Shown one piece after another: positions 51,911 through 56,511 of a stretch of DNA of 64,000 nucleotides. Each line of letters opens with the position of its first letter. Within the stretch, counting starts at the first letter, position 1. The notes under the pieces are model-generated. The model was not told the DNA's origin, made no database searches, and was given only the letters and a program-made list of their open reading frames with translations. This stretch comes from Olivibacter sitiensis DSM 17696 (GTDB taxonomy: Bacteria > Bacteroidota > Bacteroidia > Sphingobacteriales > Sphingobacteriaceae), in NCBI RefSeq assembly GCF_000427965.1, contig NZ_ATZA01000011.1:1-64000 (forward strand), in the 5' to 3' direction. A program made the translations under genes and the position numbers.

Positions 51911-52885
51911 TTATTGATAACCTGGATTCTCTACTAAATTAGGATTGCTAGACGTCCTGCTCTGGCCAATGGGCAAATAATAATTTCTTTCCACAAAAAA
52001 TGGACTGTGCATACCAGCAACATTTTCTACAATATACAACCTGAATTTCTGATTTGACGGATCGTATTCTCCTTCTGTGAGTGAGGCCCCGTCGATGATG
52101 AAGCGCAGTCCCGAAAAGCTCCTAGTCAAATCGTCTACAGCAGTTCTCCATCGGCGTAGGTCAAAATACCGATTGCCTTCAAATGCTAATTCCACTTTCC
52201 TTTCATGACGTATTTTCTCCCTATCAATATTATCAAGAATTGGAATGCCGGCCCTACTTCTTATGGCATTTATTGCCGTAAGTGCTTCATCCATAAATCC
52301 CAACTCGAAGGATGCCTCCGCCAAATTCAAATAAATCTCGCCCAATCTGAAGATAATATAATCTGTATCTGAATAATATCGTTCTTGGATAATCCCTTTG
52401 GATTCATCCAAATACTTCAATATACCAAAGGGTGTAGGCCTACCGTAACTTCTTGATCGGCTGTTTACTCCTTTATAAGCTCCCACGGTTTGTAAAGTAC
52501 CGTTTGGCAGCAAAATAGCATCGTGATAATCCAATATACCTTCTAGCCAAGGCGTTCCATGTGTATAAATAGATGCCCTGAAACGTGGGTCTTTTTTGCC
52601 CCATAGTTCATCCAACGTCCAAAGATGATCGGCACTGATTTTCTCCCTGTCTATTTTTGGTGAGGAACCATCCATGTTTTCAAATGCTTCTACCATTTCG
52701 AGATAAACCGTTGATTGCTGTCCCCCAGCCCATACGTTATAACTAAATGGATTCTCCCACATATCCCAGGAATGCCCTTTTCCAGTGATTCCCGTATATT
52801 TTTCGGCAAAAATGACCTCACTATTATCTTTTTCCAGAAAAAGGCCACGGAAATTCTGAGTTTTGTTTTCATATACTCTAATAAA
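51911..52885 (-). pseudogene. SusD-family gene truncated at its 5' end by IS110
   Basis: The frame is open from about 52885 (FIRVYENKTQNFRGLFLEKD) through the Met at 52762 to the stop at 51911, about 324 residues. It carries the SusD C-terminal half: IIFRLGEIYLNLAEASFELG, RHERKVELAFEGNRYFDLRRW and YLPIGQSRTSSNPNLVENPGYQ. The first 150-200 residues, including signal peptide and lipobox, are missing and the frame meets the IS110 element directly. It cannot be exported as it stands. Confidence 0.88.
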
Positions 52886-52895
52886 TTACAAGTTT

Positions 52896-53909
52896 CTAGG
52901 CCACTATTTTTTCGGAGCCGTTTACATTTTTGTTAATTTCTCTTGGGTCTAGGCATACATAATCCTTATCATAAGGTTTTTTGCTGTTTACTACACTGTA
53001 GACCGTTCTTAATAATTTATTCATAACATTGTTCATGATCAGGTAATGAGGTTTACCCTCCTGTTGCTTTTTCTGATAATATAACCTGTATTCCTTATTA
53101 TGCTTCACTGCGGATTTTGCGCCCATGTACAGCAGGGATTTAAGTTCTTTATCTGCAAATGGGCTTGTCCTGGGCTTGCCGACCATATTTCCCGAAGCAT
53201 TGGGGAAGGGACATACGCCGGCGTATGAAGCCGCTTTTCTGGCCGTTCCGATTGTCTTGAAGTTGCCCGTCTTGATAATCAGATCAGTAGCTATGACCGG
53301 TCCTACGCCCTTTACCGAAACCGCCAGCCCATAATTCCCGGCCAGTTCCCTATCATTCTTTATGATCAGTTCCATTTCTTCATCTACGGCTTCTATCTGC
53401 TGGTCAAGGGCGTTGAGGGAAGCTTTTAGGATGAGGTTCACCTTGATGCTCTGCATGGGCATCTGCTCCCGGGCATGCTCACCTGTCCTTAATTTTTTAC
53501 GGGATTTAACCAACTGTGAACGAAGCGAATAAAGTTGACGTAATTCAGAGCCGCTTTCGCTCTGATACGTTTTGAAAGATAGCTTGTCAAAGAATCTCTC
53601 CCCGTATTCCCGTAACCGCGAGGCATCTATTGGGTCTGACTTGCCTTTAAGGATACCCAGGCTATGTTTTACCGTATAGCCCGGAACAAGTGCTATCGAG
53701 ACTCCGCACCGGTTACACAGAAAGACTAACAGATCTCCATAGCTACCGGTATTCTCCGCACATAGCACAGAACCCTCGGGTACTTTCGATAGAAATTTCG
53801 ATATGGAGTCCAATCTGTTTTTCACTGTCCTGTTTTTTTCTTTACCGTCTGTATCAAAGAAGTTTACGTCAAACTTTTCTTTTGATAAATCTATTCCATA
53901 TACTTGCAT
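52896..53909 (-). CDS. IS110-family transposase (DEDD/serine recombinase)
   Basis: A 337-residue recombinase. The N-terminal RuvC-like DEDD domain shows Asp in YGIDLSKEKFD, Glu in LCAENTGSYG, and Asp residues in KSDPIDASRLREYG. The C-terminal domain has VKGVGPVIATDLIIKTG and AASYAGVCPFPNASG, where the Ser near NASG is the expected nucleophile. The start at 53909 (MQVYGID) is set by the left-edge copy, which has a stop codon just upstream. IS110 enzymes cut and join DNA under guidance of a bridge RNA from the element end (established for IS621). The noncoding end lies upstream of the gene, as in the IS110 subgroup and unlike IS1111. Confidence 0.92.
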   Translation of the reverse strand: MQVYGIDLSKEKFDVNFFDTDGKEKNRTVKNRLDSISKFLSKVPEGSVLCAENTGSYGDLLVFLCNRCGVSIALVPGYTVKHSLGILKGKSDPIDASRLREYGERFFDKLSFKTYQSESGSELRQLYSLRSQLVKSRKKLRTGEHAREQMPMQSIKVNLILKASLNALDQQIEAVDEEMELIIKNDRELAGNYGLAVSVKGVGPVIATDLIIKTGNFKTIGTARKAASYAGVCPFPNASGNMVGKPRTSPFADKELKSLLYMGAKSAVKHNKEYRLYYQKKQQEGKPHYLIMNNVMNKLLRTVYSVVNSKKPYDKDYVCLDPREINKNVNGSEKIVA

Positions 53910-54138
53910 AAATATTTTATTTATGCTCCGCATTGAGTGGCTAACATCGTGATAATGGGTTCTTCCCTAAATACTCTCTGGCTTTGACTCAATAGATCTG
54001 CTGTCCTTAATATGAAACTTAGGTTCTACCTATTATTATTTTAAAGTTAGGGCAGCAGATGGAGCTTTTTATCCAAAGATATATTTCACGATCTATTCTC
54101 ATTTCTTGTATTTATCCTTCAGAGTTCAAACTAACGAT
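53910..54138 (-). ncRNA. Candidate IS110 bridge RNA region
   Basis: The 229-bp noncoding end is largely kept between the two copies (70-299 and here). TCTGCTGTCC (53997-54006) can pair with GGGCAGCAGA (54050-54059) over 10 bp with one G-T pair; the same stem exists at 158-167/211-220. Inside it lies a small hairpin, TAGG-ttcta-CCTA here and TGGG-ttcta-CCCA in the left copy, a compensating base-pair change. Next to it a block of about 14 bases (54031-54044 and 192-205) is quite different between copies, as a guide loop might be. IS621 bridge RNAs come from this position; no transcript has been shown here. Confidence 0.5.
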
Positions 54139-56511
54139 AATACTCTGTTTTACCGCATTGCCAAAGACATAGCCCGTACCAAAATTGTACCCAGACAGAT
54201 ACGGAAAATTCCCTACTGCTGCATCGTTCCCCGTCTGACTATAACTCAGTCTCAATTTCAAATCGTTTACAAATGGCAACCCCGTTTTGATAAATTCTTC
54301 TTCACTGAGTCGCCAACCAGCAGAGATACTCGGGAAAATACCCCTTCTGGAATCTTTATTAAACTTTGCAGATTCGTCAATCCGTATTGTACTTTCTAGC
54401 AAATACTTTCCCAAGAAGCTATAATTCAGCCTGCCAACGTAACTGGCTCTTCCCATTTCAGCGGCGCTTCCGTCTGCCCGCTGAACGGCCACACCGCCCG
54501 CAAACAGGTAATCTACTGTGGATGTAAGGTAATTTTCCCTTCCTGCCAATATATTGTCTGAATAATAATCTATAACTTCATATAAAGCCATAGCTGAAAG
54601 GTGGTGATCGACCGCTATTTCGCGATCAAAATTTACGTAAAATTGCCCCGTCAACACACGACTCCTATTATCCCTATGTGTCAGTTTGGGGCTATTACCC
54701 GATCCTGCAAGAGTATAAATGTCACTCTCGTGATTATAAGTCCAAGTATCAACCAATCTTTCGAATACCTTTTGGAAAGTATAGTCCTGCCGATAATTGC
54801 CCAACGCTTTTAGGGAAAGTCCTTTGACATATGGCACCTGATATTGAAGGGACACATTGCCAGTCAAGTACTGCGTATTCGTTTTGCGGTAACCTGAGAT
54901 TTCACTGTTTGACGTGACGTGTACGCCTCCCGTACCACTGCCATTTGCATATGGAATCTTGGTGGGATCGGGCAAACTTGATGGATAATAGGGCTCAGTA
55001 TTCCAAAAATCCTGCCACACAGAGCTTTCACGTTCATCGCTTCTCCAAGGAAAATCACGGTCACTAATGATAGAGGCTAAATCGATCTGCAGTTTCAGTC
55101 CGTTAGAAATATTCGCATCTACATTGGAACGTATATTATATCGCTTATATTCACCTCCATTATGTTTAAACATAGATTCTTGATCCAAGAAACCCAAGAA
55201 TCCATAATAATTCACTTTTCCACTGCCGCCTTTCACCGACAGGTTATATTGCTGCTGAGGAGCATATTTACGAGCTACTTCTTTCAACCAATTTGTATTT
55301 GCATAATCTGGATTAGTTCCAGCGTAAAATAATTCCACTTCCTCTTGGGTAAAACGAGCGGTTTCTTCCGGTTTACCAGACTGCAAATGCTCTTCGCGAA
55401 TTAATTCCGCATTCTGACCAGAGCTCGCTGGTTTCAACATATTTGTTACAGACTGAAAAGTTGCTCCTTGATTGAACATAATAGTAGGAGCAGTTTCGCT
55501 GCCTCGCTTTGTAGTAACCAAGATGACGCCATTTCCAGCCCTCGATCCATATACAGCTGCCGAAGCATCCTTTAAAAAGGTAATGCTCTCGATTTCGTTT
55601 TGGTCCAAGGCATTCATATTCCCTTCCACATTGTCAATCAAGATCAGCGGGGCACCAAATCCTCTGATATTCAATGAAGAAGCATCACCACCAGGTAAGC
55701 CCGAACTTTGAACAGCGACGAGACCAGGTACACGACCGGCTAACATATTTGAAACTTGAGCTATGGGAGTTTTAGTAAGCTCATCACTGTTTACCATAGC
55801 TACGGAACCAGTTACAGAAGCCTTTTTCTGCGTTCCATAGCCTACTACCACTACTTCGTCCAACCCTGCATTGACTTTTTCCATTTGGATATCCATAGTC
55901 GATTGCGTAATTCGAATTCGAAGTTCTTTATACCCTATATTTCTGAAAATCAAAGTATCGCCATTATTTGCCGCTATGCTATACTTTCCCTCGGTATCAG
56001 TAGAAGTGCCTCTTGAAGTTCCTTCAACCAAGACTGAAACACCTGGGAGGGGACCCTCCAAATCTTTTACCACACCAAACACTATATCCTGTATCATTGG
56101 CTTAGCCATCACGTCCTTATTCAGCTGGTGCTGATACTGAATGATAATAGCTTTATCCTTTAACACATACTTAAATGGTTGTCCCGAAAATATAATGGGC
56201 AAGGCCTCCTTTATAGGTACATTCCTTAAATCGACTGTTATGGGCTTTGCTTGTTTCATATAATCTGCCTTGTAGAAAAAAGAGTAATTGGTTTGCTTAC
56301 GCAATTGTTGGATAACATCCTCAAGGTGCCCGTCCCTCATGGATATAGATATTTCTTGAGAAAGGGCCGCAGCGTACATCTGTATGAAAAATATACAGAC
56401 CAAAATAGTTGTCAGATTCATGGTTAGGAAAAATCGCTGTATAGGTTTATTCCAAGAAAAATAAGGCAGACAATACACCCTACTTTTTCCTATTGGAAAA
56501 AATACTTTCAT
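54112..56511 (-). pseudogene. SusC-family transporter truncated at its 3' end by IS110
   Basis: The frame encodes about 790 SusC residues and then a few from the IS end (VSLNSEG) before stopping. It has an N-terminal signal segment (MNLTTILVCIFFIQMYAAALS), STN domain (about 55-120), carboxypeptidase-regulatory-like domain (about 140-215), plug (EVVVVGYGTQKKASVTGSV, APLILIDNVEGN, ITFLKDASAAVYGSRAGNG) and most of the barrel, to FGTGYVFGNAVKQS. About 200-250 C-terminal residues, including the terminal barrel strand, are missing, so it is unlikely to insert in the outer membrane. Gene remainder ends near 54138. Confidence 0.9.

Follow-up and report, generated by a model that had tools for sequence, protein, structure and literature searches.

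Does the 229-base stretch at positions 53910 to 54138 encode a guide RNA for a mobile element, and if so, from which strand is it read and which DNA does it choose? The stretch lies in the window, by which we mean the 64,000 nucleotides of contig NZ_ATZA01000011.1 of Olivibacter sitiensis DSM 17696 that were analysed. A sequence-only reading had proposed a candidate bridge RNA of an IS621-type IS110 element, and this proposal is supported both by covariation and by pairing between guides and insertion-site DNA. Very probably, an insertion sequence of the IS110 group has its left end at this locus, where it encodes a bridge RNA on the minus strand, and we infer bridge-RNA function from the sequence.

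The 229-base stretch is the long left end (LE) of a 1,264-bp IS110-group element (Table 1). Element boundaries were set from the flanks of left and right ends (LE and RE) in the same genome, in the genus and in other genomes. Junction comparison placed the LE (CGTTAGTTTG...) at 54136 and the RE (...TTAGAGTAT) at 52873; position 54138, which had been given as the end of the feature, is part of the core dinucleotide and lies outside the element end. Left ends begin with CGTTAGTTTG immediately after the core, which is usually AT, and right ends finish with AGAGTAT, followed by AT and then the target, with AC instead in one relative (L049). Most elements have the arrangement LT-AT-element-AT-RT, where LT and RT are the left and right flanks, without target duplication. 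The LE measures 227 nt and the RE 23 nt, with the RNA inside the LE, which fits the IS110 group. The IS1111 group shares the recombinase family and the RNA-guided principle, but there the RNA lies downstream and the subterminal inverted repeats measure 7 to 17 bp; here the RNA lies upstream, the longest inverted match between the first and last 60 nt of the element is 6 bp, and the long subterminal inverted repeats that are the hallmark of IS1111 were not found within these 60-nt ends.

Table 1. Coordinates of the element and of its predicted RNA, guide and promoter features in the window
Feature	Coordinates	Strand	Basis
Whole IS110-group element, 1264 bp	52873..54136	-	LE/RE flank comparison; size and ends checked
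Left core dinucleotide AT	54137..54138	-	Junction comparison, checked
Right core dinucleotide AT, then target GAAAAC in susD	52871..52872	-	Junction comparison, checked
IS110 recombinase, 337 aa, likely start MQVYGID	52896..53909	-	Pfam and phmmer
Predicted bridge RNA, structured part, 147 nt	53922..54068	- (recombinase sense)	Covariance model and covariation
Outer closing stem, 5' arm GCTCC, partner GGAGC 53925-53929	54061..54065	-	97.5% of cells paired, 16 elements
TBL stem, 5' arm ATCTGCTG, partner CAGCAGAT 53996-54003	54053..54060	-	100% paired
Left target guide (LTG) AAAATAATA	54034..54042	-	Resembles G003 left-flank consensus; family-wide match
Hairpin TAGGTAGAACCTA between LTG and RTG	54020..54032	-	2 pairs with double changes
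Right target guide (RTG) GTTTCATAT	54010..54018	-	Complementary to ATATGAAA, right junction 52867-52874; family-wide match
DBL stem, 5' arm ATTGAGT, partner ACTCAAT 53932-53938	53987..53993	-	98% paired, mostly invariant
Left donor guide (LDG) AGAGTATTT	53969..53977	-	Same as right end AGAGTAT(AT) 52871-52879
DBL hairpin GGGAAGAACCC	53957..53967	-	GGG/CCC invariant
Right donor guide (RDG) CACGAT	53946..53951	-	ACGAT complements core and LE start ATCGT, 54134-54138
-7-like box TTAGTTTG	54127..54134	-	In circle joins right-end TTG, 20-bp spacer
AGAGTAT in left flank (susC), donor-end-like, at deletion junction	54140..54146	-	Chance about 2e-4 within +/-1 nt
LE of diverged second copy, subtype B, truncated at contig start	70..299	-	88% identical

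Pfam analysis of the recombinase returned DEDD_Tnp_IS110 (E = 3e-15) and Transposase_20 (E = 1e-18), both above the cut-off, and phmmer aligned the protein nearly end to end with the recombinases of IS621 (8wt6, E = 2e-16) and ISCro4 (9t56, E = 1e-16). The motifs GID, AENT, SDPID and ASG align to the DEDD and Ser positions of IS621 and ISCro4, and the residues are kept (D14, E60, D100, D103 and S247 in P0001 numbering). The open reading frame list also offered a longer start at 53933; this ATG falls inside the RNA and is not likely to be the recombinase start.

Turning to the RNA, the sequence-only reading had drawn its structure from the two copies of the left end in the window, and each of the features it described is real. 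A 10-bp stem joins 53997-54006 (TCTGCTGTCC) to 54050-54059 (GGGCAGCAGA) and, likewise, 158-167 to 211-220; on the plus strand it comprises nine Watson-Crick pairs and one G.U, and on the minus strand the last pair is a conserved C.A mismatch. The inner hairpin reads TAGGTTCTACCTA here and TGGGTTCTACCCA in the copy at the contig start, with a compensating change that makes the pair 54021-54031 A-T where 182-192 is G-C. Two copies by themselves prove little; the structure stands with 16 elements.

These 16 distinct elements, from Parapedobacter, Olivibacter, Albibacterium, Pedobacter, Salegentibacter, Sunxiuqinia, Carboxylicivirga and others, formed the LE alignment. The named structure has 29 pairs, in an outer stem and two stem-loops, of which the first contains an inner hairpin and the other a GGG/CCC hairpin, and its layout is that of IS621: a closing stem, a target-binding loop (TBL) and a donor-binding loop (DBL). 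Of the 464 pair cells, 98.1% were paired, compared with 25 to 46% when partners were slid by 1 to 3 columns, a percentage that is inflated because the structure was partly derived from the same 16 sequences; the independent part is the double changes. Compensatory double changes were found in 7 of the 29 pairs, a number reached by 0 of 500 shuffles (mean, 1.2), and the covariation noted between two copies thereby holds in the larger alignment. Four of the pairs with double changes are in the TBL stem, for example in L047 (ATCTACCG/CGGTAGAT) and L049 (GTATGCTG/CAGCATAC). The covariance model matched the window RNA with 181 bits (E = 5e-42), this sequence itself being part of the model, and matched the RNA of the second copy, at 83-229, with 179 bits. 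Single-sequence folding gave no support for the structure, the minus strand folding no better than shuffles (z = -1.23; plus strand, z = -2.76), and covariation was used instead. An Rfam search gave no family reaching its gathering score anywhere in the window, and none with E <= 1 in the interval 53900-54140. A phylum-wide search of 395 genomes with the covariance model gave no match outside the genome of origin, so the RNA scaffold is narrow.

The block beside the hairpin, which had been read as a guide loop, does vary between the two copies (TATTATTTTAAAG versus ATGGTTTAAATAAAG) while its flanks are conserved. We can refine this: it is one of four guides (LTG, RTG, LDG and RDG), namely, the LTG. 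As a guide, it agrees throughout the family with the DNA at the insertion sites; in the window copy itself, agreement with the left flank is at chance level (6/11). In transposase orientation the LTG reproduces the top-strand sequence on the left side of the element, as in the guide/flank pairs GTTGTTGTTAT/CTTGTTGTTAT (L044), TTTAACTTACT/CTTAACTTACT (L047), TAGCTAACAAT/TGGCTAACAAT (L043) and TCGCCAAATAT/TAGCCAAATAT (L041). The RTG is the complement of the top-strand sequence on the right side (ATTAAGC in L043, ATGTCCT in L047, ATATAAA in L075 and ATGAATG in L010), and the right flank of the window copy, ATGAAAAC, fits it. Across 15 elements, the LTG scored 8.4 of 11 against its own left flank versus 5.4 against those of others, and the RTG scored 6.4 of 7 against its own right flank versus 4.6. 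None of 200,000 permutations reached the left or the right value (p < 1e-5 each); relatedness could inflate these tests, but the signal comes from positions at which related elements differ. Relative to the hairpin, the LTG shifts in register by 1 to 2 nt, and three offsets were allowed for own and foreign pairs alike.

Individual insertions followed the same pattern. In subtype B of the same genome the RTG is GCTTCAT versus GTTTCAT, and both B right ends were found at ATGAAG versus ATGAAA; the assembly breaks inside these copies, and we infer that their left and right ends belong together. Two insertions in genome G002 with one common guide share the target TGATGAACGAT. One element, L105, was found by the covariance model and not by protein; its recombinase gene is mostly lost through an internal deletion, its RNA is intact, and its right guide fits the right flank ATATGGATA. 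This element (1250-1800) is a non-autonomous relative. The misfits were the left flank of L002 and the right flank of L040, which do not match their guides. L002 (contig C28; 1440-1520 and 2760-2790) also differs from most elements in that a stretch of about 17 bp (TATGAAAAAACTGATAT) occurs at each of its two flanks, which is unusual for IS110; its right junction fits the guide and its left junction does not. In L040 the right end is followed by ATCGTTA, which resembles the start of another left end and diverges after it; a tandem copy may have left this remnant. Many right flanks begin with ATGAAA, and a preference for start codons was considered and rejected: open reading frames were no commoner there than after other ATATGAA sites, of which 17/28 had an open frame of at least 60 codons.

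Another species of the genus (G003) holds at least nine to ten copies (L011-L037) with ends identical over 56 to 81 bp to those of the window element, which suggests a recent transfer. From these identical ends the G003 copies would be expected to carry the guide of the window element, their internal part being absent from the assembly; the LTG of the window copy resembles AAATAATAT, the left-flank consensus of these copies.

The donor guides match the element ends, are nearly invariant and hardly covary, which leaves little covariation power. One relative provided a natural change. In L049 (1-200) the core is AC, not AT; its donor loop has ACGGT, which pairs with ACCGT, and its target loop has GTGTAT, which pairs with ATACAC. 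The RTG and RDG have thus both changed along with the core.

TTG is the -33 box of Bacteroidota promoters. When the element ends were joined, TTG-N19/20-TTAGTTTG was present in 13/13 reconstructed circle junctions, with N20 in 12 and N19 in one. The box TTAGTTTG is one position off the Bacteroidota -7 consensus, TAnnTTTG at -12 to -5 (PMC9723704). As judged from sequence, the circle junction would recreate a Bacteroidota-type promoter pointing into the minus-strand RNA, with an RNA start probably near 54122. The promoters of IS621 and ISEc21 form at the same place, the joined circle ends (PMC11208160, PMC11187229).

Strand was a point on which the sequence-only reading was silent, and the evidence favours an RNA read from the minus strand, with the TBL ahead of the DBL. 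The plus strand does fold better, and the invariant C.A mismatch would become G.U on it. We nevertheless regard a plus-strand RNA, running antisense to the recombinase, as very improbable: the C-G to U-G exchanges at columns 20/66 (7/16) fit the minus strand and would give A.C on the plus strand, the conserved circle-junction promoter is directed into the minus strand, and the order TBL then DBL upstream of the gene agrees with IS621 on the minus strand only. Reversing the strand leaves the guide logic unchanged, so it is uninformative here. We likewise give hardly any credence to the structured left end being a DNA feature only, that is, recombinase sites or an mRNA regulatory hairpin with no guide role. 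Such a feature would be in keeping with the unremarkable single-sequence fold and with the position of the RNA directly upstream of the recombinase start, but a DNA-only site would not be expected to match its own flanks through both target guides or to have core, RTG and RDG changing together, as they do in L049, and the loops vary whereas the stems covary. For ISEc21, RNA supplied in trans restores transposition of an LE-deleted element (PMC11187229).

The mismatch between LTG and left flank in the window copy apparently arose because a deletion replaced the flank. The intervals 51911-52876 and 54112-56511, on either side of the element, hold a susD gene without its first part and a susC gene truncated near residue 793. 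In four homologous loci the matching susC and susD points are 1.92 to 1.97 kb apart, and here they are joined by the element, so that about 1.9 kb of the susC-susD pair is missing. The new left flank, CAGAGTATTAT, holds AGAGTAT, the donor heptamer, with its register shifted by one base, an observation made after the fact; it suggests an excision-like deletion, which is unproven. In such an event the donor loop would have taken the susC AGAGTAT site for the RE, and the element's LE would have reacted with this pseudo right end as in excision, leaving a hybrid donor-like left junction; exactly the observed product would result. A natural deletion directed by the bridge RNA is a tentative reading and, on balance, a doubtful one. 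The main alternative is that susC and susD each carried a copy in the same orientation and that these two copies recombined by homology. Homologous recombination between IS copies is common, and the many copies with identical ends in G003 agree with it; yet an insertion in susC should have left an LTG-matching left flank, and the flank instead bears the heptamer. We consider recombination between copies a serious possibility that falls short of probable. In G003, the left flank of L022 (contig C53), ACAGTATAT, resembles the donor end AGAGTATAT and misfits the target guide, as in the window copy.

Taken with what is known of IS621, a guided insertion would proceed as follows. The element would circularise, and its joined ends would form the Bacteroidota-type promoter, giving the RNA and then the recombinase mRNA. 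The first loop would pair with both strands of the target DNA around the AT core, the LTG with the left bottom strand and the RTG with the right top strand, and the second loop with the element's own joined ends, the LDG with the RE and the RDG with the LE. By homology, the recombinase would exchange strands at the core as in IS621.

All features tested fit an element of the IS110 group that carries a bridge RNA (PMC11208160, PMC11208158) or seekRNA (PMC11187229), and the locus is most likely a well-supported new example of the mechanism described in 2024, not a new mechanism. Like IS621 of Escherichia coli (PMC11208160, PMC11208158), it has the RNA in a long left end upstream of a DEDD and Ser recombinase, a target loop followed by a donor loop, each with a 5' guide for the bottom strand and a 3' guide for the top strand, the core in both guides and a predicted junction promoter. 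Unlike IS621, its core is AT (AC in one relative) rather than CT, its junction promoter is Bacteroidota-type rather than sigma70-like, its recombinase is only distantly related, its targets are AT-rich and its RNA has no Rfam match. With the IS110-type ISEc21 (PMC11187229) it shares an RNA from the noncoding region upstream of tnp, a presumed circle intermediate and a match to the bottom strand that precedes the match to the top strand; sequence and targets differ, and association with the transposase was shown for ISEc21, whereas the present RNA is known from sequence.

Structural modelling of IS621 suggested that a contact would be lost if the core began with A, which was therefore disfavoured (PMC11208158), and the AT cores (one AC) with natural guide/target pairs described here are useful data on that point. 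If the deletion reading is true, it would be a natural off-target use of the donor loop and a safety question for bridge-RNA genome editing. The locus extends the IS110 bridge RNAs by a Bacteroidota subfamily, in which the scaffold is fixed, the natural guides are almost free to vary and copies 88% identical within one genome already differ in their target guides.
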